33,080 bases of DNA from a virus. The translations under genes were made by a program, and so were the position numbers. The DNA lies in the IMG/VR virus record IMGVR_UViG_3300037104_000279, positions 1 to 33,080 of that record; one strand, written 5' to 3'. Positions 18,977 through 33,080 of this stretch are shown piece after piece (the first letter of the stretch is position 1; each line of letters opens with the position of its first letter). The notes under the pieces are model-generated. The model saw only the letters and a list, made by a program, of their open reading frames with translations, ran no database searches and was not told the origin of the DNA.

Positions 18977-20260
18977 ATGAACGAAAAAGTAAATCTCAAA
19001 GAGAAAACAGTCTGCATCGTGGACAACGGATTATTCGTCAGCTTTGCACGAGAACTAGCAAAAGGGTTCGGCCGGACGCTGTATCATAAACCGTTTCAAT
19101 CCGCTTTTGTTCGCACCAATGACCTAGCCCCGGGCCGGGGGTTTCCAGAACTAGAATGGTGCGAACAACCCCTCGCGCTACTAGGCAAGACACCGGACGA
19201 AGACGAAATAGACCTTTGGGTCTTTCTTGACTTGTATCAAGGAGGGCTTCAAGAATTTCTGCGTTCATCGGGGCGGCGGGTATGGGGCAGTGGCATGGGC
19301 GAAGAGATGGAACTAAAGCGCTGGGAGTTCAAAGAACACCTTAAGAAGCTCGGTATGTCCGTGCAACCAATGGAACATATATTCGGCATGGACAAGCTCC
19401 GGGAGTATCTCAAGAAGCACGAGGATAAATATGTTAAGACTTCATTCACGCGGGGGGATTTCGAGACCTTTCATCACGAAACCTATGCGCTATCGGAGCC
19501 GCGTCTTGACGAGCTTGCGCACACGCTTGGTGCTAAAAAGAGTGACTACGAATTCATTGTGGAAACGCCCATAGCCGATGCAGTCGAAGTCGGATACGAT
19601 GGGTTCACAGTGAATGGAAAATTCCCCACCCTCGCAATGATGGGTTATGAGATTAAGGACTGCGGCATGGTAGCTACCGTAAAGCCGTATGAACTCCTCG
19701 CTGACCCGGTTAAGCTGGTCAATGACCGGATGAGTAAGGACCTCGCGGGATATAACTATCGGGGTTTTTGGTGCACGGAAATCCGTTACACTAAAAAGAA
19801 AGAGAGTTTCTTTCTTGACCCGTGCTGTCGGTTGGGGACGCCGAGTAATGAACTCTTGCAGGTGTTGTTCGACGGTTGGGCGCAAGTGGTCTGGGCCGGG
19901 GCAGAAGGGGTCTGCACTACACCGAAGATGAAAGCCAGATTTGGCGCACTCGCCATGATAAACAGTGAATGGGCGGTTAATGACTGGCTCTGCGTGGATT
20001 TTCCGAAGGAACTTGACGAGTGGGTTAAGCTTAGGTTTCATGTTAAAAAGGATGGAAAAAATTACGTGGTGCCGAATACGATTGGGATACCGGACGTGGG
20101 GTGTGTTGTGGCTACTGGCGATACACTAGAAGCGGCGATTAAGTTGTGTAAAGAACGCGCAGAAAAGATTAAAGGGTTTCAGGTTAGTGTTAATTGCAGC
20201 GCGTTGGACAAAGGGCTGGAAGTAGTGAAACAGGGGGAGAAGTTTGGGGTTAAGTTTTAA
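18977..20260 (+). CDS. ATP-grasp family ligase (PurD-like fold), substrate unknown
   Basis: The 427-residue protein begins with a Rossmann-like strand (TVCIVDNGLFVSFAREL, residues 11-27). An ATP-grasp layout follows: VWGSGMGEEMELKRWEFKEHL (102-122; equivalent to G-x-x-x-E-x-x-K in glycinamide ribonucleotide synthetase), a nucleotide-binding strand YVKTSF (152-157), EFIVETPI (192-199) and a metal-site region WCTEIRYTKKKESFFLDPCCRLG (265-287). In PurD the last element reads E-F-N-x-R-x-G-D-P; here it is LDPCCRLGTPS, so one ligand is altered. ATP-grasp enzymes join a carboxylate to an amine or thiol through an acyl-phosphate. No purine genes are nearby, so a purine role is unlikely. Its stop is 2 nt from the convergent ATPase gene. 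Confidence 0.65.
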   Translation: MNEKVNLKEKTVCIVDNGLFVSFARELAKGFGRTLYHKPFQSAFVRTNDLAPGRGFPELEWCEQPLALLGKTPDEDEIDLWVFLDLYQGGLQEFLRSSGRRVWGSGMGEEMELKRWEFKEHLKKLGMSVQPMEHIFGMDKLREYLKKHEDKYVKTSFTRGDFETFHHETYALSEPRLDELAHTLGAKKSDYEFIVETPIADAVEVGYDGFTVNGKFPTLAMMGYEIKDCGMVATVKPYELLADPVKLVNDRMSKDLAGYNYRGFWCTEIRYTKKKESFFLDPCCRLGTPSNELLQVLFDGWAQVVWAGAEGVCTTPKMKARFGALAMINSEWAVNDWLCVDFPKELDEWVKLRFHVKKDGKNYVVPNTIGIPDVGCVVATGDTLEAAIKLCKERAEKIKGFQVSVNCSALDKGLEVVKQGEKFGVKF

Positions 20261-20262
20261 GA

Positions 20263-21519
20263 CTAGCTCGCCAGCTTCTGACTCATGAACTCCCGCATAG
20301 CCTTGGCTATTGCGGGTTGTTTCATGCCCTCGCCTGTGAGCAGCCATGTTTTAACCGGCCCCCCAGGTGGGTATGGAAAGGCTTGTTTCACAAGTTGATC
20401 AGAGTCACACAGGTGCTTGACGCTATGGTATAGTTCCTGCGGGGATAGGTCTTTGCCCGCATGACGTAGGAATTCCTTCTCGGCCATTATTCCACCGCGA
20501 GAGTTAATCACGTCAATGACCTTGACCCATTCGGCTTGTAGTTCATTGCGCCCACCGGATAGGTAGAGTTTCTTAAGGTTGGGTTCTACAAGTGCCAGCC
20601 AGACGAGTCCTTCTTCTATAAGTTCCTCGGTGATAAGATAGGTCGGGTTCTCTTCTGCGAGGTTGAGTAGCATACAGACTTTTAATAGCTGCTGGTCTTT
20701 AGTTGATTTGAACCCAGCGATAGATGAGTCATCTTCACGCTCGTTGAAGTTTTTAATATACCATGTGGTGAACGCCGCGAACCCTTTCGGGTGCCATGCG
20801 AAGTTCTTCGCCACGGTATGTAGCTTTTGCAAGTGCCGAACCATACGGGATTTGATTTCAACATGATCCGGCGGGAGGATGATCTGTGGCCGAGCCTCGT
20901 CAGGCTTGCCGTATTCGTAGCAGACGATGAAGCGGCGTGAGAAGCCACCGGTGACTACGCCTTCTTTCAAGCGACGAAGAAACCAGTCGGTGTTCTCGCA
21001 CGCGAGGATTGAGACAAAGGGGGATTGTGAGTCCTCGACGCCGCGCTTGATTGTGGAGCACTTGAAAAGCTTGCCGACCTTGTCATAGACGTTGACAAGG
21101 AAGTTAATCATCATCGCGGGGTTGTAAGATGTGAAGTCCTTGAACTCCGAAATATAGAACGCCAGCGGGTGGTAGATTTGCGGGTCATTATTCTGGTCGA
21201 CATAAGAGCGCTCGGTTATATCAAGCGAGAGAAGGCGCACAATGTCATCGCGAGAGGTGATGTCCGCTGCGATTGGATAGTCTGGAAATGCTTGGTCGAT
21301 AAGGTTCTTCGCGGCGTCCATTGCGTAGGACTTACGGTTACCTTGCGGGCCGACCAAGATGATATACATGATTGGGTAGATGTAGTAGGAGCCGTTTAAT
21401 AGGCGATAGCGTGGCCCGGCACAAGCGCCTAGCGCGGCCATTGCTGACCAGCGGAGATAGGATTTGTGACACTCGGTGCCGGAGTGATAGGTCATGAAGT
21501 CTTGGATGAAGTTAGACAT
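20263..21519 (-). CDS. DUF3987-like P-loop ATPase, probable replication helicase or primase-associated protein
   Basis: The 418-residue protein from ATG 21519 (an in-frame ATG at 21540 is also possible) starts SNFIQDFMTYHSGTECHKSY. It has a Walker A motif GPQGNRKS at residues 57-64 within YIYPIMYIILVGPQGNRKS. Further features are DITSRDDIVRLL, HPLAFYISEFKDF and an arginine-rich GGFSRRFIVCYE, the order seen in DUF3987/VapE-like ATPases of phages and plasmids that accompany primases. A winged-helix-like C-terminus follows (EKEFLRHAGKDLSPQELYHS). It is the last gene of the leftward replication block, after the polymerase and a zinc protein. A role in replication initiation or unwinding is inferred. 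The MSNF start is chosen because residues before it look non-conserved. Confidence 0.65.
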   Translation of the reverse strand: MSNFIQDFMTYHSGTECHKSYLRWSAMAALGACAGPRYRLLNGSYYIYPIMYIILVGPQGNRKSYAMDAAKNLIDQAFPDYPIAADITSRDDIVRLLSLDITERSYVDQNNDPQIYHPLAFYISEFKDFTSYNPAMMINFLVNVYDKVGKLFKCSTIKRGVEDSQSPFVSILACENTDWFLRRLKEGVVTGGFSRRFIVCYEYGKPDEARPQIILPPDHVEIKSRMVRHLQKLHTVAKNFAWHPKGFAAFTTWYIKNFNEREDDSSIAGFKSTKDQQLLKVCMLLNLAEENPTYLITEELIEEGLVWLALVEPNLKKLYLSGGRNELQAEWVKVIDVINSRGGIMAEKEFLRHAGKDLSPQELYHSVKHLCDSDQLVKQAFPYPPGGPVKTWLLTGEGMKQPAIAKAMREFMSQKLAS

Positions 21520-21746
21520 ACATCGGTGACTATGCGCCAATCTTTTGAGCGCGTAGAGATTTTGTTAAGTTGTGCGTTGGCTGCTTTTAGGTTTACGATA
21601 AGCCCACATATAGGACAGATATAAGCGTGATCGTTGAGTAGAAAGAGATGTATGTAACGTGGGTGGAAGGTCGTGCCCATGTTGTAGCATCGGCAAGTGG
21701 GTGGTCGTGCGGCGAACCACGCGGACTCTATTGGGGATAATGGCAT
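21492..21746 (-). CDS. Small Cys/His zinc-binding protein
   Basis: The 84-residue protein has CRC (residues 19 and 21) and CPIC (55-58), with several histidines between (FHPRYIHLFLLNDHAYIC). This is a plausible treble-clef or zinc-ribbon site. It starts 3 nt below the copy 4 palindrome and overlaps the ATPase start by 28 nt. The position between polymerase and ATPase suggests a small DNA- or protein-binding replication factor. Function is unknown. Confidence 0.6.
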   Translation of the reverse strand: MPLSPIESAWFAARPPTCRCYNMGTTFHPRYIHLFLLNDHAYICPICGLIVNLKAANAQLNKISTRSKDWRIVTDVCLTSSKTS

Positions 21747-21748
21747 AG

Positions 21749-21775
21749 GAGTTTGGTTCTTTTATAGAATAAGAC
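21749..21775 (-). repeat. Copy 4 of the dispersed palindrome, before the zinc-protein start
   Basis: On the leftward strand the arm ATTCT, loop ATAAA and arm AGAACCAAACTCC precede ATG by one base. The gene-proximal arm is intact and the distal arm is decayed (ATTCT instead of GGTTCT). The copy also lies between the polymerase stop (21779) and this start. Confidence 0.75.
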
Positions 21776-21778
21776 AGA

Positions 21779-24619
21779 TTAGATATTTCCGACTGAGAGG
21801 TCTGCCCATGACGGGCCATAGTTTCCTTCGAAAGGGATGCAAATAGGTATGCCGGCAATTACAAACGTGTTATCAAACCATGACCGAATCTTTTTAACTG
21901 CCCACTCGGTATCCTCGATACGGAACTGGCCGATGAGCGCATCGTGGACTTGGTGGAATGGCTCAGCACGTAATGCGCATCCTTGACGAAGCCCTTGACG
22001 TGCCCCCAGAATACGCGCTTGAGCTTCTGCTTGGTTGTTAATTCTATTTTCTGGATCACGCCAGAGCTTCCATGCTGCGAGGTTTGTTGCATATGTTGTG
22101 TTTGCTTGTGGTTCATGTGCTAGTGCTTGACCGAGAATATCGGTCTTGCGGGAAAAGAATCTGCGCTTGTGCCCTGATGGCACGGTTAAATAAGGGTTCT
22201 TGGCAAGGCGTATCTGCATTGCGTTGTGCCAGAGCTTGACGTTATAGCCTGCGTAAACGGCTTGACGAAACTGCTCAACCTCCGAGCGGGACATGACCAT
22301 CTTGCCTTGAGACTCCTCCATGATTTCCTCTGCGAGTAAGTCCACGCCCATGAGATAACATATCCCCCAGATGCCGACCTTACAGGCGAAGTAATCCCAG
22401 TCAGATTTCTTTACTTCTTTTAATAGTTCTTTCACCTCATCACGAGGCTTACGAATAAGACTACCATTGCCATGGCGCAGCATGTAACAAATTCTGCTGG
22501 CTGGTTTAATACCAGTGCGTAAGTCATCAAGCATATTAGGGTCACCGAGAGAAGCGAGGTTAGCTCCAATAGTCCAGCCATCAGACCCTTTGAGGTCACA
22601 TTGAAACATATGATACCCGGGGTCAGCGAGAAATAAATCACGCATACCGTGGCGCAGAGGGTGGTCAGTAGCGTAAGCTTCATAGTCATCGGGGATTGTT
22701 TGTAGGTTATAGCCAGAACCGGTAGGTGATGTGTAACATGTTATTCTCCCAGTGCTCGCGCCAACGATATTATATCCGCAACGGATTCGTCCATCATTGT
22801 CGGCGGAGATGTGAAGCATCTGGCTGCGAGTTCGAAGTTCTGATATTTGGATGGCGAGTTCAACTGCCGCATGAGGTCTTGCTTTCTGTATTTTGAGTAA
22901 CGCTTTGCCGTCAGTGGTGAGAACTTTCTTGCCTTCTTCGTCTTCTTTGTATTGCGGGGGTAGTCCGAGTGTCTCATATAGGTAGGTTTTGAACTTGGGT
23001 GATTTAAGATTCATTGACCACTTACAGACCATCGAGATGAAGCCGAGGTCTTCGGGCGTGAGTGCGTCAGGCTTGGTGAGGATAGCGGTGACGAGTGGGT
23101 AGGATTTTTCATACGCCTTTTTCGGCTGCGATGTGTCCCGCTTGAAGCACATGGTTTCTTTCACCGCAGCGAGGACGGAGTCGCGTGGCTGTCCGGCGAA
23201 GGTAGTTAAACCTACGTTAGCTAGGGAGTCAAGCTGTGATTGCAGACGATATATCCAGGAGTTGACGTAAGTGAGACGCTCGGCTGCTTTGGTTGAGTCA
23301 TAGGGGATGCCACGCAGTTCCATGTAGAGGAGCGCGTTTAGTAATTCGACGTTGAATTGATAATGGGTCAGGGACGCGGGCGGGAGTAACGGCGCAAGCG
23401 TGTTCGAGATCTCGTAGGTGACCGCAGAGTCTCGACAGCAATAACGCCAGAAAGTCTCACGGTCATCTGATTTCCGGTCACCTTTATAGTAAGGCTCGCG
23501 GGTGTAAAGGGAACAAAGAAAGCCGAGACCCTTGTCGAGTTCACAGTAAAGCTCCCAAGATTTGAGCATGGTGTCCTCGGTGTTGTTGCAGACACAAAGG
23601 GAATAAGAGTATTGCAAGACGAATCGGTCATAGAGTGCATTTTGTAAGATTTTAGGTATTGCGGGCGACGCCAAGACTTCGGCTAGGAGAGTCCAAATTC
23701 GTAACTCGTCATCGAATGAGTCCCAGTAATTATCACCGTTAGCAGTCGTAAACGGAATGATGAAGGACTCACTGGGGGAAGGTGCAATAGATATGCAAGA
23801 CATTGAGTTGATACCACCTTCAATGTCAATGGAAATTGAAGTTGGGTTGTCCAAGATTCGCTGGAGACGTTGGCATATGGTAAAGGAGTCTTCATGGATG
23901 ATTAAGTCACGTGCGGGTGGTGTAAAGGTAGGTGACGTGGATTCTGCTACGCATTTTTTAATATCAAACATCAAGAGCGGCAGCCATTCGTAGTTCTTGA
24001 AGCAGCGCTTGGGTTCATAACTGGCGATACATTTACGCCCGTAAAACGGGCCGGGCTTGGTTGAGATGAAGTAAGAGCCACGCCATGCGTCGAGTGGCGC
24101 GTTGTCCTTGGCGAGGTTTAATGTCGCGCGGCCGAGCAACAGGCAAATGTTAGGTTGGAAGGTTTGCAAGTCCCGCGTGAGTGCTGTGATGCCCTCGTCG
24201 ACGTCGAGTGGGTCGGCTTCGGTAAAGTCTCCCTTGAATGGAAACCGTTGCGTGATGTTGGATAAGAAGCACGCGGCACGGAGGACACCTGCTTTGGCTA
24301 GGAGGTTGGTTAGTGTCTGCCCAGTGATGCCAGAGAACGGCTTGCCTGTGAGTTCGTCATCACGGGATGGATTCTCACCAATGACGGCGATACGCTGGAG
24401 CTGGGTTAGAGTGGGGAATTCGCCGGGGATTACATGGATTGATGTGGTCCGGAATGTAAAAGAGGAAACAGGTAACGTGAATGGGTCGATTGCGTCGGGG
24501 CGTGGCGCGCGTGGGGTGGATGATGACGATGATGATGCCGCACGTGGCGCACGCGGTGCAGCGGTAACTGGCTCTGGGAGTAAGTCCTCAAGGCCGGACA
24601 TGGATTTCTTTTTTGCCAT
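21779..24619 (-). CDS. DNA polymerase A family with N-terminal uracil-DNA-glycosylase-like domain and 3'-5' exonuclease
   Basis: From the ATG at 24619 the protein has 946 residues. An in-frame ATG at 24649 would read through the palindrome and is less likely. Residues about 70-220 match family-4 UDG/SPO1 polymerase-type domains: IGENPSRDDELTGKPFSG near 79-96, then ACFLSNITQRFPF. The exonuclease has DIE (about 263), QNALYDRF and YCCRDSAVTY. The polymerase carries motif A CDLKGSDGW (Asp675), motif B CKVGIWGICYLMG (Lys747) and motif C VHDA (Asp893). Motif A lacks the usual E-L-R, and the O-helix Phe is Trp, as in divergent phage PolA groups. The enzyme replicates the phage genome with proofreading; the UDG-like part may act on uracil or be structural. 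Confidence 0.88.
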   Translation of the reverse strand: MAKKKSMSGLEDLLPEPVTAAPRAPRAASSSSSSTPRAPRPDAIDPFTLPVSSFTFRTTSIHVIPGEFPTLTQLQRIAVIGENPSRDDELTGKPFSGITGQTLTNLLAKAGVLRAACFLSNITQRFPFKGDFTEADPLDVDEGITALTRDLQTFQPNICLLLGRATLNLAKDNAPLDAWRGSYFISTKPGPFYGRKCIASYEPKRCFKNYEWLPLLMFDIKKCVAESTSPTFTPPARDLIIHEDSFTICQRLQRILDNPTSISIDIEGGINSMSCISIAPSPSESFIIPFTTANGDNYWDSFDDELRIWTLLAEVLASPAIPKILQNALYDRFVLQYSYSLCVCNNTEDTMLKSWELYCELDKGLGFLCSLYTREPYYKGDRKSDDRETFWRYCCRDSAVTYEISNTLAPLLPPASLTHYQFNVELLNALLYMELRGIPYDSTKAAERLTYVNSWIYRLQSQLDSLANVGLTTFAGQPRDSVLAAVKETMCFKRDTSQPKKAYEKSYPLVTAILTKPDALTPEDLGFISMVCKWSMNLKSPKFKTYLYETLGLPPQYKEDEEGKKVLTTDGKALLKIQKARPHAAVELAIQISELRTRSQMLHISADNDGRIRCGYNIVGASTGRITCYTSPTGSGYNLQTIPDDYEAYATDHPLRHGMRDLFLADPGYHMFQCDLKGSDGWTIGANLASLGDPNMLDDLRTGIKPASRICYMLRHGNGSLIRKPRDEVKELLKEVKKSDWDYFACKVGIWGICYLMGVDLLAEEIMEESQGKMVMSRSEVEQFRQAVYAGYNVKLWHNAMQIRLAKNPYLTVPSGHKRRFFSRKTDILGQALAHEPQANTTYATNLAAWKLWRDPENRINNQAEAQARILGARQGLRQGCALRAEPFHQVHDALIGQFRIEDTEWAVKKIRSWFDNTFVIAGIPICIPFEGNYGPSWADLSVGNI

Positions 24620-24621
24620 AT

Positions 24622-24647
24622 AGTTTGGTTCTAATTTAGAACAAGAC
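24622..24647 (-). repeat. Copy 5 of the dispersed palindrome, in the polymerase leader
   Basis: Leftward reading gives GTCTTGTTCT, loop AAATT, AGAACCAAAC, followed by TATATG of the polymerase start. One mismatch (T for G) weakens the distal arm. It fills the gap between the methyltransferase stop (24656) and the polymerase ATG. Confidence 0.75.
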
Positions 24648-24655
24648 ATCCTGGG

Positions 24656-26278
24656 CTATTTGAACTGATAGTTCGGGTTGATCGTGAGGTAATGCTGCTT
24701 GACGTTTTCGACAAGCGCGTTGAAATGTGCGTCGTTAAGTTCGCAACTAATGACGCGGCGCTTGCAGCGTAGGATTGATAAGACGCCAGAGCCACGACCG
24801 GAGAACGGCTCTAGGATGGTCTGGCCTTCGTAGGAAACGTGGTTGATGAGATACTGCCAGACATCGAACGGTTTCACAAAGGGGTGGCCGAGGGTGTCTT
24901 TGTAATCGTCGTGCGCGGCGAGGATATGACATTCGTCTGCGCGTGTGGCCATCGAAGCAGTGCCCTTGCGGCAGACCATAGCTATCTCTGTGGTCTTGGT
25001 GAAGTTCTTATCAATAGACTGGTTCATACAGCGGTGGGTTTTAACCCACGTGATAGGCCAGCGTTGAACACGGAAGCCCGCTGAAGTTGCGAGGTCATAG
25101 AGACGCTGCCATTGCATCATGTCCGCCCAGAGAATAAAGTATCCATTGGGCTTGAGCACGTTATATGCGGCGGGCATTAACTGTGTGAACAGTTCTTCAT
25201 TGCCAGAGACAGTGTGTTCTGCTTCGACTGTGTCAATGTCTTTGAACGCGTGCCCATCGTTACCTTGATTGAGCATATCCATGTCGATACCATAAGGCGG
25301 GTCGGTAATGATATGGTCGACTGAACTGGGGTAGGCGAGCATGTAGTCGATGCATGAGCAGTGATGTAGTAACGAAGACAGCGCTATGGTCTCGGTTTTA
25401 TACTCCGCGTAAACTGGGCCTAGTGTAATTTGTCCGGGGCCAGTGCCGGGACGCCAACCTAGGCCGGTTTGCTTGCAATGGCCGCAACCAGTAGCGAGTC
25501 CGTTGCACAATGGACAAGGCACAGCAAGGTCTGGTGGGGGGATAATCGGAGCGTAACCCGTGAGATAAGTGTTAGGTGGTTGCGAAACAGGGCCGGGGGC
25601 TACTGATGCAGTGTATGTTTCTGCGTCCACTGCGGGCAGCAGGTCATCTAACGTGGTCTCGGCTAGGGGTTTAACCACCGGTTGCTGCGTGATCTGCGTG
25701 GCAATCGCGGTGTCCTTGGCGAGCGACGCAGCGACAAGGTCTTCCTCGTCGCGTAAGCGAAGCTGCCATGCGCGGGACATATTCTCACAGGCCCAGTAGC
25801 GACGCGCAGTTGCATCAGGCAGAAGAAGTTCCGCACGCAGGCGCTTGGCAATTTCGTTATTATAGTGGACGTTCGACTGCCCACGGATGTTGAGCATTTC
25901 TGCGGTCTCACGCATGCCCCAACGCGAGCCTTCGATAGCCGAGCGGCGAGTCTTGAGTTCGTGGATTTGCAGAATGTTCAGCGCGCGCTCCTGCCACGAC
26001 ATCTCACGTCGACGCACGTTTTCTTCGAGTTCGAGTTCATGCAGCTCGTCGGTGCTTAAGGTCTCGCGAAATACCACATCAATATGAGTCCGACCAAGAT
26101 GTTGGTGAGCAGCCAGTCTACGACCACCAGCAATAAGACGCTTGTCTTGGTTGACGACGATTGGCTGGATAAGTCCGAAACGCGTAATAGAATCAGCAAG
26201 TTCAGCAATATCACCGAGGTCGATACGCTGACGGTCAATAACAAGAATTTCATTTATAGGTAGTGTTGTGCGGTTCAT
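24656..26278 (-). CDS. ParB-zinc ribbon-DNA methyltransferase fusion
   Basis: The 540-residue protein has three parts. Residues 1-110 form a ParB/Srx-type nuclease or NTPase domain (INEILVIDRQRI, then GGRRLAA at 51-57 and LEENVRRREM at 84-93) followed by helix-turn-helix-like sequence. Residues 255-268 hold a Cys4 zinc site of the CxxCxGx4-type (C255, C258, C265, C268) resembling DnaJ-type ribbons. Residues 310-540 are a beta-class amino-methyltransferase: motif IV DPPYG at 326-330 precedes motif I EPFSGRGSG at 490-498. Such enzymes methylate adenine N6 or cytosine N4. It lies between the helicase and polymerase genes. Likely roles are protection from host restriction or marking replicated DNA. 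Confidence 0.82.
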   Translation of the reverse strand: MNRTTLPINEILVIDRQRIDLGDIAELADSITRFGLIQPIVVNQDKRLIAGGRRLAAHQHLGRTHIDVVFRETLSTDELHELELEENVRRREMSWQERALNILQIHELKTRRSAIEGSRWGMRETAEMLNIRGQSNVHYNNEIAKRLRAELLLPDATARRYWACENMSRAWQLRLRDEEDLVAASLAKDTAIATQITQQPVVKPLAETTLDDLLPAVDAETYTASVAPGPVSQPPNTYLTGYAPIIPPPDLAVPCPLCNGLATGCGHCKQTGLGWRPGTGPGQITLGPVYAEYKTETIALSSLLHHCSCIDYMLAYPSSVDHIITDPPYGIDMDMLNQGNDGHAFKDIDTVEAEHTVSGNEELFTQLMPAAYNVLKPNGYFILWADMMQWQRLYDLATSAGFRVQRWPITWVKTHRCMNQSIDKNFTKTTEIAMVCRKGTASMATRADECHILAAHDDYKDTLGHPFVKPFDVWQYLINHVSYEGQTILEPFSGRGSGVLSILRCKRRVISCELNDAHFNALVENVKQHYLTINPNYQFK

Positions 26279-26300
26279 GGGAGTTTAGTTATAGTTAAAT
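26279..26300 (-). repeat. Decayed copy 8 of the dispersed palindrome
   Basis: Read leftward, the sequence ATTTAACTATAACTAAACTC, then CC, directly precedes the ATG of the ParB-methyltransferase gene. It keeps the proximal AACTAAACTCC tail of the family, but the stem has been lost. It overlaps the helicase stop codon at 26295, which may have constrained it. Confidence 0.45.
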
Positions 26301-27428
26301 GCAATAAGTTAATTTTTCAGACGCGCGTGTAATCGCGGTATACCTCCAGCGTTTCATGTCGGTCTTGAACATAATCTCGTCATAGACAAGAACATGTGGC
26401 CACTCGCTGCCCTGCGACTTATGACACGTGATAGCATACCCGTAGTCGAAGTATAACATATCCCGCGGCGGCTGTTCGAGCTTCTCCAGCGGGGTTAAGA
26501 AAGGCTTCTTCCACACGCGGATGCTATGGTATATCTTATCACCTTCGTCACGTAGCGTGCATAGCCAGTAATGCTCATGCTCGGTGAAGTCCTCAACATA
26601 GCATATCAGGCCGTTGAACATCGCATAGCGGCGGTTATTCCGCAAGCAGATTAACTTCTCACCGAGGTTGAGCGGCGCATCAACGCGGCCAAGCGCCGTT
26701 CTAATACGTCGATTAAGAATACTTCGTGTAGCGTTCTTCGCGCAGATGACTTGAGAGCATTGAGACAGCTCTTCGTCTGTAATGAATTTAGCTTTGACAA
26801 GACACGCGCCTGTGGGGTCAGTGATTTTGACCGGGAAGCCTTGCCGGACTTGGGTGGCGAGTGTAATGATGGGGGAGTTGAGTGCTTGACGGTGGATTTT
26901 AGTGAGGACATAATTTGGTGCGAGCATGAGGTTAGGGTTGTCGCCGACGGGTTCTAGCTGACCGGGGTCACCGATGAAGAGTAGGGGGATGTTAAAGGTT
27001 AATAGGTCGCGGTAGAGGTCGGACGAAAGCATGGACGCCTCGTCGATGACGATGAGATTAGGGTTGCCTTCGAGGCGGCGTTTGAGCACGAAGGACACGG
27101 AGCCGTCTTTGTTTTCTTCACAGTCGTATATCATTGAATGGATGGTTTGTGAAGAGTGGATGCCTTTCTTGCGTAGCACGTGGCAGGCTTTGCCGGTGAA
27201 GGCACAAACGTTAGCGCGGATGGATGTGATCTCGGTTAGAAGATAGTTGATGATGGTGGTTTTACCAGTGCCAGCGTAGCCACCGAGTTTGAACTCATGT
27301 CGCGGGACGTGGTTCATTGGCGTATGCCCGTTGAACCAAGCGAGGATGGAGTTAATGGCAGTTTGTTGTTCGTCGGTTAGGGTGATGGATGGAGGTGTTA
27401 GTGTTGGTGTTAGTGTTATAGTTTGCAT
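26295..27428 (-). CDS. SF1 helicase, RecD/Dda-like
   Basis: The 377-residue protein has Walker A GGYAGTGKTT at residues 49-58, motif II VIDEASMLSSDL near 130, GDPGQLEPVG shortly after, and a C-terminal UvrD_C_2-type motif YAITCHKSQGSEW near 331-343 followed by ITRASEKL at the end. This is the compact layout of phage Dda-like helicases that unwind DNA 5'-3' and help origin melting, strand displacement or recombination. The N-terminus has a short Thr/Pro-rich repeat (ITLTPTLTPPSITLT). Its gene lies downstream of the recombination genes and upstream of the methyltransferase, in the same leftward transcript. Confidence 0.88.
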   Translation of the reverse strand: MQTITLTPTLTPPSITLTDEQQTAINSILAWFNGHTPMNHVPRHEFKLGGYAGTGKTTIINYLLTEITSIRANVCAFTGKACHVLRKKGIHSSQTIHSMIYDCEENKDGSVSFVLKRRLEGNPNLIVIDEASMLSSDLYRDLLTFNIPLLFIGDPGQLEPVGDNPNLMLAPNYVLTKIHRQALNSPIITLATQVRQGFPVKITDPTGACLVKAKFITDEELSQCSQVICAKNATRSILNRRIRTALGRVDAPLNLGEKLICLRNNRRYAMFNGLICYVEDFTEHEHYWLCTLRDEGDKIYHSIRVWKKPFLTPLEKLEQPPRDMLYFDYGYAITCHKSQGSEWPHVLVYDEIMFKTDMKRWRYTAITRASEKLTYCI

Positions 27429-27591
27429 ATATTTTTATTGCTTTGAGTACTGAAAAGCGCTGAAAATTTTTGGCCGCTTTCGAGCGGGCGTAGTGCAATC
27501 GTGTCAGGATTGGATATGGCGCATTGCAAGGCGGAAAATGGACGCGCCTAAGGGGAGAATCAAAATGCCCTATAAATGAAATGATAGCAAT

Positions 27592-27708
27592 TTATTTCCG
27601 CCACTTGTCTTTGCACAGATATTTCGCAACAACGTTAATAGCGAGCAAGGCAAGCATAAGTGCAGCGGGGAGAAACGCAAGCGCAGCGACTGCGTTAGTG
27701 GCGGTCAT
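27592..27708 (-). CDS. Tiny single-pass membrane protein (38 residues)
   Basis: An ORF from ATG 27708 to TAA 27592 encodes a 38-residue protein: a short polar start (MTATN), a 24-residue hydrophobic helix (AVAALAFLPAALMLALLAIN, then VVA) and a basic end (KYLCKDKWRK). The charge pattern suits an inner-membrane helix with a cytoplasmic basic tail. It begins just below the copy 6 palindrome, at the spacing seen for the other leftward genes, which supports it as a real gene. The role is unknown. The next 163 nt (27429-27591) to the helicase start contain no other convincing gene. Confidence 0.6.
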   Translation of the reverse strand: MTATNAVAALAFLPAALMLALLAINVVAKYLCKDKWRK

Positions 27709-27713
27709 AAAGT

Positions 27714-27739
27714 AGTTTGGTTCTAAAATAGAACCAGAC
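27714..27739 (-). repeat. Copy 6 of the dispersed palindrome, before the tiny membrane protein
   Basis: Leftward: GTCTGGTTCT, loop ATTTT, AGAACCAAAC, then TACTTT and ATG at 27708. The core GGTTCT and AGAACC arms pair perfectly. It abuts a second, unrelated hairpin at 27736-27767. Confidence 0.8.
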
Positions 27740-27767
27740 CCGGAGATTTACTGGATACTCCGGGTCT
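27736..27767 (-). terminator. Strong 10-bp GC-rich hairpin after the DUF669-like gene
   Basis: AGACCCGGAG (27736-27745) and CTCCGGGTCT (27758-27767) pair perfectly around a 12-nt loop. It lies 25 nt beyond the stop of the gene at 27792, and copy 6 follows at once. No T-run follows on the leftward strand, so it may be a 3' stabiliser or processing element rather than an intrinsic terminator. Confidence 0.6.
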
Positions 27768-27791
27768 GGAGTGATGCCGTGTTAAGTGATG

Positions 27792-28298
27792 TTACCCTTC
27801 GAGGACAACACCCTTGATCTCGTTCCCTTCGGGATACTCGCTCGTCTCTTGCTTGTGTCCGACCTTCACCAGCGCGAGCTTACCCACGAGGATGCTGGGG
27901 TTATTAATCACGTCCAGCGGGGTGATGCTCGCAGACAGGCCCACGCCCTTGGCGAGACGCGCGATGTCCTGTGCGACGGCCTTGGCGGTCTTCTTCTCGG
28001 TGGCTTGCAAGCCCATGTATTGCGACAGCGTGAGCTGCTTGACAGCCATCATGTCACCTTTCGTGGACTTGATCTCCTTGGTGTTCTGCCACTTCAGGAG
28101 CAGGTTACGCCCGGTTTGGGCCTTGTTCGGAATGACGCTGGCCTCGGCGATGGACATCTCGTAGTTCGACGGTGGAGCAATCGGACGTGAGAGGTCGATG
28201 TCGCCGACGGGGGTTGCGAGGGGGTCGAGGGCGGAGTCGGCACCCGTGCCAGCAGCGGAGTCAACGTTGAGGAGGAACAGTGGGCGGTATGTTTTCAT
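27792..28298 (-). CDS. DUF669-like phage protein, probable ssDNA-binding/recombination partner
   Basis: The 168-residue protein resembles the DUF669 family by layout: a start region with PPSNYEMSIAEASVIPNK, then TGRNLLLKWQNTKE, a helical QDIARLAKGVGLSASI segment, and a final LVGKLALVKVGHKQE, then EGNEIKGVVLEG. DUF669 proteins occur beside Sak4-type recombinases and are thought to bind single-stranded DNA. Here the Sak4-like gene is three genes upstream in the same transcript. Residues 14-35 are low in structure and acidic. Assignment is by pattern and context. Confidence 0.6.
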   Translation of the reverse strand: MKTYRPLFLLNVDSAAGTGADSALDPLATPVGDIDLSRPIAPPSNYEMSIAEASVIPNKAQTGRNLLLKWQNTKEIKSTKGDMMAVKQLTLSQYMGLQATEKKTAKAVAQDIARLAKGVGLSASITPLDVINNPSILVGKLALVKVGHKQETSEYPEGNEIKGVVLEG

Positions 28299-28304
28299 TG
28301 TATT

Positions 28305-28565
28305 TTAGTTTTTGGTTATGTTTATGTTTGTTTCTTGTTGTTTGTGCGTTCCCAAGGTTCCACTGGAAACCTCCACTGGTGGATTAGCCACCGTGCGGAG
28401 TTTACGTTTCCTAGCGGACTTGGAAATGGTGATGGTATAAGGTATGTTGTTAACCTCTACCGAGATTTTGGTTTGATGCGCACCCATGTCGTGCATATGT
28501 TGCGCGAGGGCGAGTGCCGCGCGGGCGTTGTGTGAGAGCGAGGTGATGGTGTCAAGGTCGCTCAT
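28305..28565 (-). CDS. Hypothetical protein (86 residues)
   Basis: Not recognised. The N-terminal half (DTITSLSHNARAALALAQHM) is helical. The middle has a beta-like VEVNNIPYTITI segment followed by a basic KSARKRKLR patch, and the end is polar and probably disordered. The basic patch may contact nucleic acid. It overlaps the preceding gene by ATGA and is 6 nt before the DUF669-like gene, so it is part of the recombination operon. Confidence 0.6.
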   Translation of the reverse strand: MSDLDTITSLSHNARAALALAQHMHDMGAHQTKISVEVNNIPYTITISKSARKRKLRTVANPPVEVSSGTLGTHKQQETNINITKN

Positions 28566-28951
28566 ACGGGCTTGTCCATATCCGGCCCCACCATACCAGC
28601 AGAGACCATGTCGTTAATTTGCTTTTCAAGTTCCTCGGCGTGCATAATGGAGACGAGCATCACGAGTTCGTCCTTGGATAGGGAGTTGAACTTGTGCATG
28701 AACGAGTCCATGAGCAGGCGCTGAGTTCCAGCGGGGATGTAGGATTCTTTGTTGGGGAGAGATTTAAGCAGTGGTCGAGCGACGTTGCGTAAGACAGAGT
28801 CCCAGATGCCCATTGCGGTGCGTGCGAGGATTTGTTCTGGCGTGAGAACGTGCGCGGGTGGGGCTGAAGTGAGGCCACGCTGTTTTAGGTAGTCTTGCAA
28901 GGCGCGACGGCGTTCATGCGGTGGTAGGCGGTTGAGTTCGGCGTCATTCAT
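28562..28951 (-). CDS. Hypothetical helical protein (129 residues)
   Basis: Not recognised. It starts with NDAELNRLPPHERRRALQDY, a charged helix, followed by helical segments (TPEQILARTAMGIWDSVLRN) and an acidic end (MVGPDMDKPV). No metal-binding or catalytic motif is visible. Both ends overlap neighbours by ATGA (Sak4-like gene before, 86-residue gene after), so stoichiometric co-expression with the recombinase is likely. Confidence 0.6.
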   Translation of the reverse strand: MNDAELNRLPPHERRRALQDYLKQRGLTSAPPAHVLTPEQILARTAMGIWDSVLRNVARPLLKSLPNKESYIPAGTQRLLMDSFMHKFNSLSKDELVMLVSIMHAEELEKQINDMVSAGMVGPDMDKPV

Positions 28952-29754
28952 ACAAGAAGTTCCTTTCCATAGATGCTAGTAAAATCCGCCCCGCAAACCT
29001 GCGGGAGATTATTAGGCCACCGCACGCCGATTGCTTTGACATTACCCTTCGGCTTAGTATAGACTTGCAGCATGCCCGATTCATTCGTGGCATAGAGATA
29101 CTGCGACACCAAGCTGCCGATTTGCTCGCTTAACCGATTCGGCCCGAGTGGGATAATACTAATATCCCCGGTGAGTTCGTTCTTCTCCATGTGCGAGTGC
29201 GCGATGAACACTGTGTTCAGCGGAAGATTAGCCATCACTGCGACATTCTGGAGCACTTTACTCCCAATCGCAGGTGACCATTTACGCGCGTCCGAGAGCC
29301 ACGAGGTGTTCTTCTCCGCGACGAGGGACATTAACGTGTCGCAGAGCGTAGTAACCGAGTCCATTACGAAGGTCTTCCACGGGCAACCGATGGTGACGAG
29401 GTAATTGATAGATTGGTAGTATTGCATGTATGCCTGCGAGTCGGCAATGGGTTCGAACTTCTCAGTCATCTGAAGTTTCCGATGCGAGGTGAAGTCAATC
29501 ACGGTGACCTTGGGGAGGTCAGCGGTGGGCTTTTTACAGTATGTAATAAGTTCATCCGGTTTGATGAACACAAGGTCGGAGAACAGAACGTCGAGTTTAA
29601 TCGCCGCGCGGTCGGTGGTCGGTGTCGAGGGGATGACATCGAGTCCGCCTTTATCGAACAAGAAGACGAGCATTGGCTTTGGGTAGGTGCCGACCACGGC
29701 AACGGTCTTGCCGGATTTAGGTGGGCCGATTCGGAGTTCGCGGATGTGTTTCAT
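28948..29754 (-). CDS. Sak4-like RecA-family ATPase (single-strand annealing/recombinase)
   Basis: The 268-residue protein has Walker A GPPKSGKT at residues 10-17, a hydrophobic Walker B strand WKTFVMDSV ending near residues 131-132, and a later FIAHSHMEKNE sensor-like strand. Short RecA-core proteins of this type (AAA_24/Sak4) are encoded in many phages with an ssDNA-binding partner and a nuclease, and they promote annealing or strand exchange. Here the partner and nuclease genes are in the same operon. The 77-nt leader before it (29755-29831) is AT-rich and shows no palindrome. Confidence 0.82.
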   Translation of the reverse strand: MKHIRELRIGPPKSGKTVAVVGTYPKPMLVFLFDKGGLDVIPSTPTTDRAAIKLDVLFSDLVFIKPDELITYCKKPTADLPKVTVIDFTSHRKLQMTEKFEPIADSQAYMQYYQSINYLVTIGCPWKTFVMDSVTTLCDTLMSLVAEKNTSWLSDARKWSPAIGSKVLQNVAVMANLPLNTVFIAHSHMEKNELTGDISIIPLGPNRLSEQIGSLVSQYLYATNESGMLQVYTKPKGNVKAIGVRWPNNLPQVCGADFTSIYGKELLV

Positions 29755-29831
29755 AGTCGTATTGTATCTTTTGTTTGTTTTTTATTTTTCATTTTTGTTT
29801 TTGGCACTTTAAGGACTCGCGTCCATGAGAG

Positions 29832-30785
29832 TTATTTCAGCGGCGACCACTCATTCCGCGTGAAAAGATCACTCGCAAGCATCTGCTGTCTGCTTTCTTC
29901 GGGCAGATAACAGATGTCATAATACGGGCACTTGCCATATAACGTACAAGCCTTTTTCTTCTGCGGCATAAACCCACGCGAGTAATGCCAGAAGAACTCC
30001 TCGACCAAGGCGATTGTATTCGTGCGCCACTCGTCAAGTTGCCCCGGACGGAGATACTCCTTATGCGACATGAAGCACTCGTCCCACCATGCGGGCCAGC
30101 CCTTTGTAGGTTTCCCAGGTTTTGCTTTGGTGCGTATGCCCCGGACGAAAAACCCCGCAACAGGCTTCTTTGTGAGTTCCTGAAACGCCCAACAGTAGCC
30201 CTCGAACTGCGGGGAGACTTTCATTTCGTCTGTTTTGGACTGGCCCAAAGTGGAGGCGGTCTTGAAGTCCCCGATGAATATCTGTCCGTCCCAGAGAACA
30301 GGAAGGTCGACGCGGCCGGTGTAGATAATCGACACACCATTAGGTAAGGTGCAAAGCGGCACCGAGAAGGACATTTCGGCCATCACCTTACCCTCGCTAT
30401 CCACCATTAAGCTGAATGGTTCATGCTGGTAGCGCTGATTATACTGACCGATTATTTCCTGCGCGAGTTGCAGCGTCCGGTGGTCGTCTTCGGGCTGGGG
30501 ATTTTGTGCAAAATGCGGGGCAAGCGCGTGGTCGAAGATGTCTTGTTCGTCCAATACAGTGGGAGGCTCGTTTTTGAAATGCGTATAACGATATTCCAGC
30601 GCACAATGTACCGCGGAACCAAAGTTCAGCGCGGGCTTGTCACCGGCCCAGATGCGCTTGTAAAGGTCGTTGTATTCGGTTCTGCGCGGGCAGGTGATGA
30701 AGTGTTCGAGAAAAGAGTTGTCGATTTCCAAGCAGCCGTTTTTTAACGGCAGTGGCGGCAACGGTGCGCGATGAAAAGTGCTCAT
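29832..30785 (-). CDS. PD-(D/E)XK nuclease with Fe-S cluster motif, Cas4/RecB-like
   Basis: The 317-residue protein has the nuclease residues in order: GSAVHCALE (His60), TGRVDLPV (Asp160), GDFKTAS (Asp173, Lys175) and SPQFEGYCWA (Gln193). Four cysteines, Cys32 (TCPRR) and Cys280, Cys286 and Cys292 (CTLYGKCPYYDIC), match the 4Fe-4S arrangement of Cas4 and AddB-type nucleases. Such enzymes process DNA ends to give single strands for a recombinase. The neighbouring Sak4-like and DUF669-like genes complete a plausible phage recombination set. It overlaps the preceding short gene by ATGA. Cas4 homologues in phages may also act against CRISPR adaptation, but no evidence for that is seen here. Confidence 0.87.
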   Translation of the reverse strand: MSTFHRAPLPPLPLKNGCLEIDNSFLEHFITCPRRTEYNDLYKRIWAGDKPALNFGSAVHCALEYRYTHFKNEPPTVLDEQDIFDHALAPHFAQNPQPEDDHRTLQLAQEIIGQYNQRYQHEPFSLMVDSEGKVMAEMSFSVPLCTLPNGVSIIYTGRVDLPVLWDGQIFIGDFKTASTLGQSKTDEMKVSPQFEGYCWAFQELTKKPVAGFFVRGIRTKAKPGKPTKGWPAWWDECFMSHKEYLRPGQLDEWRTNTIALVEEFFWHYSRGFMPQKKKACTLYGKCPYYDICYLPEESRQQMLASDLFTRNEWSPLK

Positions 30786-30931
30786 AGCAAGTCCTCTAGG
30801 CCGGTGGTGATAGCGTCGGTTTTGTCTTGTCCTTCACCGGATTCAGCACCGACGCCGGCGCGCCACGAAGCAAAGTTCGTGCGCATATTACGTATTCTTG
30901 CTAGGTGTGATCTTTTTTCCTGCTCGGACAT
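30782..30931 (-). CDS. Short hypothetical protein (49 residues)
   Basis: The ATG at 30931 opens a 49-residue frame, SEQEKRSHLARIRNMRTNF followed by an acidic, Gly-rich tail ending TTGLEDLL. A much longer upstream extension in this frame (from 31066) overlaps the neighbouring gene and has low-complexity Ser/Thr sequence, so the short start is preferred. It overlaps the nuclease start by ATGA and the preceding gene by 44 nt. A small basic helix plus acidic tail could bind the nuclease, but this is speculative. Confidence 0.5.
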   Translation of the reverse strand: MSEQEKRSHLARIRNMRTNFASWRAGVGAESGEGQDKTDAITTGLEDLL

Positions 30932-31337
30932 TTCGCGCACTGGTTTTGGGCACAGGCCCAGCAGGGGTGCTTCCGATAGGAACGATGCTTTCGCGACCGT
31001 CGGTGACGTGGATGTTATTAAGGAAGTCGCAGTATTCGCGACACTGGGTGACTGTGGTGATTCCATGTGATTTTAGTTGTGTTTGGAGTTTTACGAGCAA
31101 TATATTAATGGTGGTCTGCATCATCCCTTTAACGGGGTTAATGCTACGAAAGAAGTTAAGATCATCCTTGGGCATGTCGACTTGCACACGTCCGTGGGTG
31201 AGTGGGTTATACGCACCGGAGAGTTCCAGTGGGTTGCGGAAACGTGCGATGGGGCTGGCGGCAGTGGCAGCGATGGCACTGGGGCTAGTCGCAGTTTCGG
31301 ATGTCGGCTGCGGTGTTGTGTTCAATGGTTCGATCAT
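30888..31337 (-). CDS. Hypothetical protein (149 residues)
   Basis: Not recognised. The first 30 residues are a Ser/Thr/Ala/Pro-rich, probably disordered segment. Residues 45-108 look folded (HGRVQVDMPKDDLNFFRSIN, then GMMQTTINILLVKLQTQL and TQCREYCDFLNN). The end is basic (ARNVRAGKKITPSKNT). It overlaps the genes on both sides in other frames, by 44 and 53 nt. The pattern of a helical core with basic tail would suit a DNA-binding accessory, but nothing specific is visible. Confidence 0.55.
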   Translation of the reverse strand: MIEPLNTTPQPTSETATSPSAIAATAASPIARFRNPLELSGAYNPLTHGRVQVDMPKDDLNFFRSINPVKGMMQTTINILLVKLQTQLKSHGITTVTQCREYCDFLNNIHVTDGRESIVPIGSTPAGPVPKTSARNVRAGKKITPSKNT

Positions 31338-31554
31338 AATTTTGTTTTAACAGCAATGCTGCGTTTTTGAATGTTTCAGCCGTGGTGCCTGTGCGGCAGG
31401 TTTGGTTCTGGCAACGGGAACAATAGATGTGTTTAATATGTAGCAGGTCAATGGTGATGAGTTTTGCACCGCAGTTCGGGCACGTGTGATTAAAGGACTC
31501 CAGCAATGCCTGTTGCGGGGTCGAGGTCGATGGAGACGTCGTATTTGAGTTCAT
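31285..31554 (-). CDS. Small zinc-ribbon protein (89 residues)
   Basis: From the ATG at 31554 the protein is 89 residues long. It begins with an N/S/T/P-rich stretch, then HTCPNCGAKLITIDLLHIKH, CSRCQNQTC and a helical tail (ETFKNAALLLKQNYD). The CxxC pairs form a canonical zinc ribbon, with an extra cysteine following. A longer in-frame version from 31752 would run through the neighbouring gene's sequence with an Arg/Cys/Ser-rich stretch and is less convincing. The gene overlaps the next gene's start and the previous gene's end (by 65 nt). Likely a small nucleic-acid- or protein-binding factor. Confidence 0.55.
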   Translation of the reverse strand: MNSNTTSPSTSTPQQALLESFNHTCPNCGAKLITIDLLHIKHIYCSRCQNQTCRTGTTAETFKNAALLLKQNYDRTIEHNTAADIRNCD

Positions 31555-32050
31555 ATTGGTGTTTGGTTTGTTCGGAAAAGCCGGTGCACTTGAGTTCAGC
31601 TGCGAGGAGTCGCAGTGTAGCGAGTTTGCAGATAAGGTCGCACTCGGCGTCGGTATCGAGGCGCAACAGCGGCGACGCTGACGGAGCGAAAGACGAACCG
31701 AGTCTTGCGGGAGAGTTAAGAATCGCCGCATCGGGGCGACGGAGTTCCGCACGGTCGCCGATACGAAGTAGGCCGTTTTCTTTCGTCATCGAGACGGCGA
31801 TGGAGTTAACGCAAGCAAGGAAGCGCTCACGGTCGATTAACTGCGTAGTCCAGTTATAGCGTTCGTGCGAACGCAGCGCGTCACGAAAGCGACACGCAAA
31901 GGTATCGGGCGAGAGTGAGTAGTTAAGCGACGGTGAGAAGGTAATTACACCTGGGTAGGCTTTGATTACCTGTGCGATGATGGGTTCGTAAGTGCGAAAC
32001 GCACGTTCGCGGAAGCGACAGGGGATTTGGGTTTGGTCTAGTGTGGACAT
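31490..32050 (-). CDS. Hypothetical protein (186 residues), first phage gene of the leftward block
   Basis: Not recognised. It starts MSTLDQTQIPCRFRERAFRT, has CRFRDALRSHERYNWTTQLI in the middle and a conserved-looking ECDLICKLATLRLLAAELKC helix, and ends with a YDVSIDLDPATGIAGVL strand. The repeated C-R-F-R motif (residues 11-14 and 53-56) is notable. The ATG at 32050 lies 19 nt below the copy 7 palindrome. As the first gene after the cassette junction it may be an early gene. Confidence 0.6.
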   Translation of the reverse strand: MSTLDQTQIPCRFRERAFRTYEPIIAQVIKAYPGVITFSPSLNYSLSPDTFACRFRDALRSHERYNWTTQLIDRERFLACVNSIAVSMTKENGLLRIGDRAELRRPDAAILNSPARLGSSFAPSASPLLRLDTDAECDLICKLATLRLLAAELKCTGFSEQTKHQYELKYDVSIDLDPATGIAGVL

Positions 32051-32119: not shown

Positions 32120-32194
32120 GTGGTGGCGCGGTCAGTTCCGCTATCGCGGTTGACGGTATTAGTCCCGCTTGGCTCATCTTGGTATGTTAGGGCG
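32120..32194 (-). other. attC-like site B (3' end of the methyltransferase cassette), right half missing
   Basis: Read leftward it begins CGCCCTAAC (32186-32194), continues with a GATGAGCCA block and the shared TAGCGGAACTGAC, and ends near GCGCCAC. About 70 nt align closely with attC-like site A, but the L' and R' boxes (GGCTC followed by GACTTGTTAG in site A) are absent, and the sequence runs straight into the phage leader. The R'' box also forms the last codons and stop region of the methyltransferase gene, as is typical of cassettes. CGCCCTAAC is the exact complement of the cassette's 5' boundary GTTAGGGCG at 32838-32846. Confidence 0.7.
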
Positions 32195-32929
32195 CGTTGC
32201 GCGAGTCCACTGGTCGGCCATAGCTTCAGCTATTCCGGTGTAGGTTATCGAACGCAGCTTTGCCCGAAGTTCAGGATGTTTCAGCGATGGGCCGAGCTTG
32301 TTTTGGCCGCTCGCGGTTTGATTGTCCCAGCGGATTCGCGGCGCGTTGTGTGACAGCGACGTTCGCTTTCCATTTTTATCCAGCTTGCCCCATTCCGGGT
32401 GCAGCACTTTTGTCGGCGTCAGTTTTGGCAGGCCGCGAAGCCAGAGGCACGTTGCTTTGCTGTCTGGGTGTCCGAACATCCATGGTTGGACGATTTGGTC
32501 GGGCTTGCGATATATCCCCGACATGATTCCCACGGGATTTTCGATGGCGAGCCGTGCGACCGGCGCATTGACCATCGCCATGAAGAAGTCCACGCCTTGC
32601 TGCTGCCGACCATCGGATTTCTTTGCGGCGAAGTATCGCGCCCCGCTGCTGCACAGGTGAGTGCATGGAGGGTGAGCTATCACGATGTCCCAGCTTTCAT
32701 GCAGGATGTCGCGCACGTCGCCCTGGAAGTGTTGGCCTTTAGATTCAGTCGGCAGAATGTCACACGACCACGCATCCCACCCGCGAGCAGCGAAGGCGTC
32801 ACGAACTTTTCCCGAAAATTCACACGCCACCAAAACGCGCCCTAACAAGTCGCCGGAGCCAATGCGCGTTGGCGCTGTCAGTTCCGCTACGCGGTTCACG
32901 GTTTCCGGTCGGCTGTGGCTCAGCTTCAT
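32174..32929 (-). CDS. C5-cytosine DNA methyltransferase-like protein in an integron-type cassette
   Basis: The core (from residue 31 on) matches the short phage/cassette Dcm-like family: motif I VLVACEFSGKVRDAFAARG, then WSCDILP, motif IV HPPCTHLCSSG with the catalytic-type Pro-Pro-Cys, and motif VI IENPVG. The protein is shorter than canonical Dcm and lacks a clear target-recognition domain. The open frame starts at ATG 32929 inside attC site A, so the first 27-30 residues are translated attC. The family normally begins M-R-V-L-V-A-C, so the native start is probably near Val32: TTG at 32848 or TTG at 32833. The gene ends within attC site B. Methylation of cytosine is the inferred activity. 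Confidence 0.78.
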   Translation of the reverse strand: MKLSHSRPETVNRVAELTAPTRIGSGDLLGRVLVACEFSGKVRDAFAARGWDAWSCDILPTESKGQHFQGDVRDILHESWDIVIAHPPCTHLCSSGARYFAAKKSDGRQQQGVDFFMAMVNAPVARLAIENPVGIMSGIYRKPDQIVQPWMFGHPDSKATCLWLRGLPKLTPTKVLHPEWGKLDKNGKRTSLSHNAPRIRWDNQTASGQNKLGPSLKHPELRAKLRSITYTGIAEAMADQWTRATRPNIPR

Positions 32930-32938
32930 ACGTTAGCT
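32838..32938 (-). other. attC-like recombination site A between two cassettes
   Basis: Read leftward it runs from AGCTAAC (R'', 32932-32938) through AAGCTGAGCC (L''), a variable stretch with a CCGC-GTA-GCGG hairpin, GGCTCCGGCGACTT (L') to GTTAGGGCG (R', 32838-32846). CTAAC pairs with GTTAG and GAGCC with GGCTC, the two-box imperfect hairpin that tyrosine integrases of integrons (IntI) recognise in bottom-strand attC. Length is about 100 nt, within the normal range. The preceding gene's stop codon (TAA) lies in the R'' box. Confidence 0.8.
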
Positions 32939-33080
32939 GCACCAGTCCTCAATGAACGCCGACACGTTTTTCTCATCGAACGCTTGCCGACTTGCCCACC
33001 CGTTCACTTCGGCGGGTATTCCCTTTTTGTCCAGCCACGTCCTATATTTTCCAAGCCAGTCTGTGAGCATCGAACCGCCG
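32933..33080 (-). CDS. C-terminal end of another cassette-borne gene (partial)
   Basis: An open frame enters from the right edge and ends at TAA 32933-32935 inside attC site A. It encodes at least 48 residues, ending KKGIPAEVNGWASRQAFDE, then KNVSAFIEDWCS. The product is not recognised. The Trp- and acid-rich ending suggests a small soluble protein. The stop codon embedded in the R'' box is typical of integron gene cassettes, so this is probably the next cassette in the array. The start lies outside the window. Confidence 0.65.
   Translation of the reverse strand, partial: GGSMLTDWLGKYRTWLDKKGIPAEVNGWASRQAFDEKNVSAFIEDWCS

Follow-up and report, generated by a model that had tools for sequence, protein, structure and literature searches.

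The right end of the window (the whole 33,080-base stretch of DNA analysed here, an entire IMG/VR contig catalogued as a virus) is very probably the start of an integron cassette array situated within an early/accessory region, in the genome of a lytic-type phage. In this reading the phage most likely infects Verrucomicrobia, its cassettes are exchanged by a host integrase, and cassettes with genes antisense to attC are the ones kept.

Phage backbone and position of the array

The window covers part of a phage that looks lytic, and its layout matches that of the closest complete record, MW202489. The phage part comprises:

1–20260, + strand: phage structural module, cut inside a gene by the left contig end; layout as in MW202489
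20263–30785, − strand: phage replication module, from PHROGs matches; same gene order in MW202489
31490–32050, − strand: the phage gene nearest the array, coding for 186 aa of unassigned function, in the direction of the cassette genes

Replication genes on the − strand span 20263–32050, and PHROGs matches in the module include a primase, a DNA polymerase, a ParB-methyltransferase fusion, a Dda-like helicase, a Sak4-like ATPase and an exonuclease. Because the left end cuts inside a gene, about a quarter of the phage genome is probably missing from the window. MW202489 carries about 7 kb of small early genes past its Dda helicase, at the position that the array occupies in the window. A PHROGs scan of the ORFs of this fragment detected no integrase, repressor or chromosomal gene.

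Three further features of the phage part were recorded. The fusion of a ParB-like domain to a DNA methyltransferase lies at 24656–26278 (−) within the replication module. Five copies of an imperfect palindrome (about GTTTGGTTCTWWAAWAGAACCAGACTCC) are scattered over the phage part, at 894, 6812, 13444, 27720 and 32076; one copy falls within a 1807-aa ORF and another lies 25 nt from the array boundary. A 427-aa protein encoded at 18977–20260 (+) had no match among 50,697 phage records, and its relatives at 32–37% identity were found in five contigs (G011, G012, G014, G023 and G026), all of them attC-bearing phage contigs; the protein is possibly a marker of phages of the same host group.

attC sites bounding a methyltransferase cassette

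The array part of the window contains the following features:

32120–32194, + strand: site B, the loop and L'-R' half of an attC, with R' box GTTAGGGCG at 32186–32194
32174–32848, − strand: orphan DNA methyltransferase gene, 224 aa if the start is TTG 32848, antisense to attC
32187–32932, + strand: methyltransferase cassette, from the TT of the site B R' box to the G of the site A R' box, with 14-nt matching ends
32838–32940, + strand: site A, a complete attC of Verrucomicrobia type (77.1 bits, E 9e-20, model R1)
32933–33080, − strand: gene X, the gene of the next cassette, of which only the 3' end lies within the contig

The first-pass annotation of this DNA had described two attC sites sharing about 70 nt, with the paired boxes complete in site A, and had recommended a search with attC covariance models. 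That search gave 77.1 bits for site A, whose top strand is the + strand. The match ran over the full length of the model, with paired R''/R' and L''/L' boxes (R'' CGCCCTAAC at 32838–32846, L'' GGAGCC, L' GGCTC and R' GTTAG from 32932), bearing out the completeness of this site. For site B the match was limited to the core at 32120–32166 (17.7 bits, E 0.007). The loop and L'-R' repeats are indeed common to both sites (repeats of 20 nt at 95% and of 21 nt at 81%), but the R''/L'' half is missing from site B, which is a truncated or decayed attC half-site. By inspection only, the bottom strand of site A has a single base bulging on its 3' arm. Minimum-energy folding of sites A and B revealed no stability excess over shuffles on either strand, and single-sequence folding is therefore not evidence for attC here. 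Rfam gave no match in the window. The window thus holds one full and one partial attC before the contig stops, 140 bases past site A. A CALIN is defined by two or more attC sites lying within a few kb in the absence of intI, and such clusters are present in most of the other attC-bearing phage contigs.

Both ends of a circular cassette derive from one attC and therefore match, and the two arms of a site in an array belong to different cassettes. The ends of the methyltransferase cassette, previously noted as complementary, are 635 nt apart and constitute a perfect inverted repeat of 14 nt (TGTTAGGGCGCGTT / AACGCGCCCTAACA). A 13-mer of these ends had no further copy in the window even at two mismatches, although this count is weak alone (expected mean 0.54, with 2 reached in 10 of 100 shuffles) and the weight is placed on the model score. 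The stop codons of both neighbouring genes had been placed in or beside R'' boxes. That of gene X (TAA, minus strand) falls inside the CTAAC of the R' box of site A, and the methyltransferase TGA (32174–32176) lies outside the R' box of site B, at a distance of about 10 nt. The 45-aa C-terminus of gene X had no Pfam match. Both genes are antisense to attC; a gene in the same direction as attC is the usual, not an obligatory, feature of cassettes.

The methyltransferase belongs to phrog_757 (E 2.8e-63), is about 43–50% identical to phage methyltransferases and, as its family suggests, probably guards phage DNA against host restriction. The gene was not found in the ten Verrucomicrobia MAGs with these integrons, which thus lend no support to a host origin. 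Among 80 viral methyltransferase relatives scanned, only one (L061) lay in an attC array, leading us to one more array, in contig G011; another relative (L089) had one weak match. In G011 the methyltransferase cassette of the window recurs, likewise inverted, with 53.6% protein identity, and the similarity ends at 32185, beside the R' box. The cassette ends match inside each phage and differ between the window and G011 (GTTAGGGCGCGTT / AACGCGCCCTAAC and GTTGGGCCGCGTT / AACGCGGCCCAAC).

The attC type of Verrucomicrobia integrons

Model R1 was built from 23 related sites, with the window left out. Their alignment contains 21 pairs, with 96.7% of cells paired and 8 pairs changed on both sides, and its covariation score exceeded that of every shuffle and every slid version. 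The loop pattern common to sites A and B was found in 23 stretches in 84,980 species genomes, nearly all of them Verrucomicrobia MAGs. Twenty-two of these stretches lie in one conserved site, GCCTAACAAGTCGCCGGAGCC...GGCTCAGCTTTTTTCGTTAGGC; the remaining one (L009) looks like a chance match. An integron integrase scored over the TIGR02249 cut-off in six of the ten Verrucomicrobia genomes tested. In all six MAGs the sites adjoin the integrase and the + strand of the model reads away from it, so that the canonical top strand can be assigned without reference to gene direction. Judged by its sequence, the attC type of the window is that of Verrucomicrobia MAGs, and it is this attC type, and only this, that points to Verrucomicrobia as the most likely hosts of the phage. 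Taken together, the model match, the matching ends and the presence of the same type beside Verrucomicrobia integrases support the earlier proposal that the methyltransferase cassette is bounded by integron attC. A Verrucomicrobia-type attC was also found at the extreme end of a contig labelled Micrarchaeota (L017, CAIXYX010000139.1); the label is probably a binning error, and cross-domain transfer is less likely.

attC arrays in other phage contigs

The R''-L'' half pattern occurred in 19 stretches in viral contigs, and the long exact loop pattern matched no other viral contig. When whole records were scanned, 17 further IMG/VR contigs were found to carry 1–16 attC sites each, and none of these 17 encodes an integrase over the TIGR02249 cut-off. 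An integrase just below it (263.6 vs 265 bits) is present in G017, where it adjoins three attC sites (28474–29355; L152, L153); this contig may be a chromosomal integron misfiled as a virus, or a phage with an integrase.

Direct terminal repeats are what assemblers leave on complete circular genomes. Three of the contigs (G016, G023 and G024) have direct terminal repeats of 127 bp and look like complete circular phage genomes, and they carry their attC arrays internally. Terminase, tail and virion structural families were matched across this set; a primase/helicase is encoded by both G016 and G024, and G016 also has a terminase large subunit, a portal protein and a head protein. Also found among the long proteins of the three contigs were transposase matches, one LAGLIDADG/intein match and a Cas12f1-like TNB domain.

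Footprints of cassette exchange

Across the seven outer bases of 77 phage cassettes, we counted 5.87 matches within a cassette, 3.76 in place and 3.73 in random pairings. Pairing in place (R'' with the adjacent R') thus agreed at chance level only, as expected for exchanged cassettes, and chromosomal arrays gave the same pattern of matching ends.

Two pairs of phages share cassettes. The partly related phages G018 and G021 have in common a 266-bp cassette at 99.6% identity, its own attC included; identity just outside it is 50% and 55%, and the change falls at the cut point between G and TT (G/TT) on both sides. G019 and G023 share a cassette at 99% and no other DNA outside the arrays; here the downstream break is at G/TT, and the similarity continues upstream through the preceding attC. 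Near-identical cassettes thus appear to have been swapped between phages at the exact expected cut point. At the level of sequence, the canonical attC structure, the matching cassette ends and the G/TT breaks between phages are established.

Gene orientation relative to attC

The longest ORF was antisense to attC in 39, sense in 11 and ambiguous in 34 of 84 phage cassettes, compared with 4 antisense, 27 sense and 12 ambiguous in chromosomal Verrucomicrobia cassettes. Longest-ORF calls are noisy in short cassettes (hence 34 of 84 ambiguous), and we therefore added protein-family matches and a codon score trained on the long genes of each set. By codon score, the phage cassettes were 71 antisense, 2 sense and 11 ambiguous, and the chromosomal ones 2 antisense, 11 sense and 30 ambiguous. 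Both differences between phage and chromosomal cassettes (Fisher p 9e-9 for the longest ORF, p 2e-10 for the codon score) must be read with caution, because sequences within one contig are not independent. Antisense ORFs of phage cassettes matched 25 PHROGs and 6 Pfam families, including methyltransferases, PAPS reductase, radical SAM, FtsK gamma and R2K ATP-grasp; sense ORFs of these cassettes had zero PHROGs or Pfam matches. The flanking phage genes were antisense to attC in 31 of 38 cases. In G019 and G014, two arrays lie by oppositely transcribed modules and the direction of attC flips along with them, indicating that the orientation rule follows transcription and not the replicon. The cassette genes of the window obey the phage (antisense) rule.

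The two sets of sites also differ in their likeness to terminators. At least five consecutive T residues stand before R' in 51% of the chromosomal sites and in 12% of those from phages. A hairpin-plus-T-tract test flagged 47% of top strands and 0 of 45 bottom strands in phages, and 38% of top and 20% of bottom strands in chromosomes; the test is a heuristic of our own making, and the terminator explanation does not suit a third of the chromosomal sites. The orientation bias, taken by itself, might instead reflect strand exposure: with the bottom strand, which is the recombinogenic one, placed on the lagging-strand template and left untranscribed, exchange during infection would be raised, and avoidance of termination would play no part. 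Inverting a Vibrio chromosomal integron into this orientation sharply raises excision (PMC11023631). Against this, more excision would also lose cassettes. We hold strand exposure to be possible though doubtful, and lean towards terminator avoidance as the reason that antisense cassettes are kept.

Alternative explanations and a proposed mechanism

A chimeric assembly, in which part of a cassette array from a Verrucomicrobia chromosome had been fused to a phage contig at about 32118, would be in keeping with the half-site nature of site B and with a shift in GC from 51% to 58%, and attC repeats can mislead assemblers. However, a repeat-driven join requires the repeat on both sides, and the phage side is without attC. 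The genes are antisense to attC and run along the phage operon, like those of phage arrays and unlike most chromosomal ones; the same methyltransferase cassette occurs in another phage contig (G011), and contigs with terminal repeats carry such arrays internally. A chimera is thus unlikely, and by analogy with these phages the DNA is probably continuous at about 32118. It is more improbable still that the window is a prophage in or beside a host integron, with the array as flanking host DNA. Such an arrangement has a precedent in the attC-bounded prophages of Vibrio anguillarum (PMC9892861), but there is no phage integrase, repressor or chromosomal gene among the scanned ORFs, the polymerase/primase/Dda set and MW202489 look virulent, and the left end of the window lies inside a phage gene. 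We give least credence to the idea that the repeats are attC-like intercistronic RNA hairpins or phage terminators and not recombination sites: they do sit between compact genes, and their top strand is often terminator-like, but ends match within cassettes and not across sites, identity breaks at G/TT, and the same sites adjoin integrase genes in chromosomes. The first-pass annotation had left a prophage by an integron array, a chimera and capture by a phage as three options. Capture has by far the strongest support, since complete circular phage genomes contain the same arrangement, and the other two are unlikely.

No integron integrase gene is present in the part of the phage seen. As integrases are absent from the phages and present in the MAGs, we infer that the enzyme is that of the host: the integrase of a host chromosomal integron would recognise the folded bottom strand of the phage attC and would insert, excise and exchange circular cassettes at G/TT. 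Cassette genes would be read within the phage's own operon, so that cassettes with antisense genes are kept. The mRNA would then carry the bottom-strand hairpin, which is not terminator-like, and not the often terminator-like top strand, a proposed cause of the bias; antisense placement would let the phage operon run through the array. With little more than even confidence, we propose further that Verrucomicrobia phages have a separate, actively exchanged pool of inverted cassettes, for which the host integrase acts as a gene-swapping machine, moving methyltransferases and further accessory genes, and in which inversion fits operon transcription.

Relation to known systems

Studies of integrons have treated them as devices of bacteria that phages carry only rarely and by accident. 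If phages do have their own inverted cassette pool moved by a host integrase, host integrons would work for phages too in the arms race, and unrelated phages would have one route for trading methyltransferases. The orientation rule would offer a simple way to distinguish phage-derived cassettes from chromosomal ones by sequence, and it opens to direct testing how attC direction is linked to transcription and recombination.

Seventeen attC clusters without an integrase have been described in phages, some of them virulent and with methyltransferase cassettes among them, and 5 of 6 tested phage attC sites recombined with attI1 (Qi et al. 2023, PMC9892861). CALINs of virulent phages include those of Tetrasphaera phage TJE1, Polaribacter phage P12002L and Pseudoalteromonas phage PH101 (PMC9892861). 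As phage attC clusters are already published, the window is another instance of a known phenomenon. The first-pass annotation had overlooked these clusters, along with the antisense genes, the half-site nature of site B and the indicated host group. The inverted architecture and the exchange footprints appear to be new: the Verrucomicrobia group, the inverted rule and the footprints were not found in the literature searched, which excluded most subscription papers and all preprints. Our covariance model found no site in TJE1.

The arrays described here resemble the published CALINs (PMC9892861) in being integrase-free attC clusters in phage genomes with methyltransferase cassettes. In the published set of 17, cassettes are described as co-oriented in the typical way or as mixed in direction, whereas our arrays have the Verrucomicrobia attC type, up to 16 sites, consistently antisense genes and G/TT breaks between phages. 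The orphan phage methyltransferases of phrog_757 (e.g. gp12 of Burkholderia phage Bcep1), compared as proteins, are of the same family as that of the window, at 43–50% identity. The chromosomal integrons of Verrucomicrobia (MAGs G001, G005 and G007–G010) have the same attC sequence, structure and matching cassette ends, but differ in having an integrase, sense genes and, in 51% of sites, a run of at least five T residues before R'.
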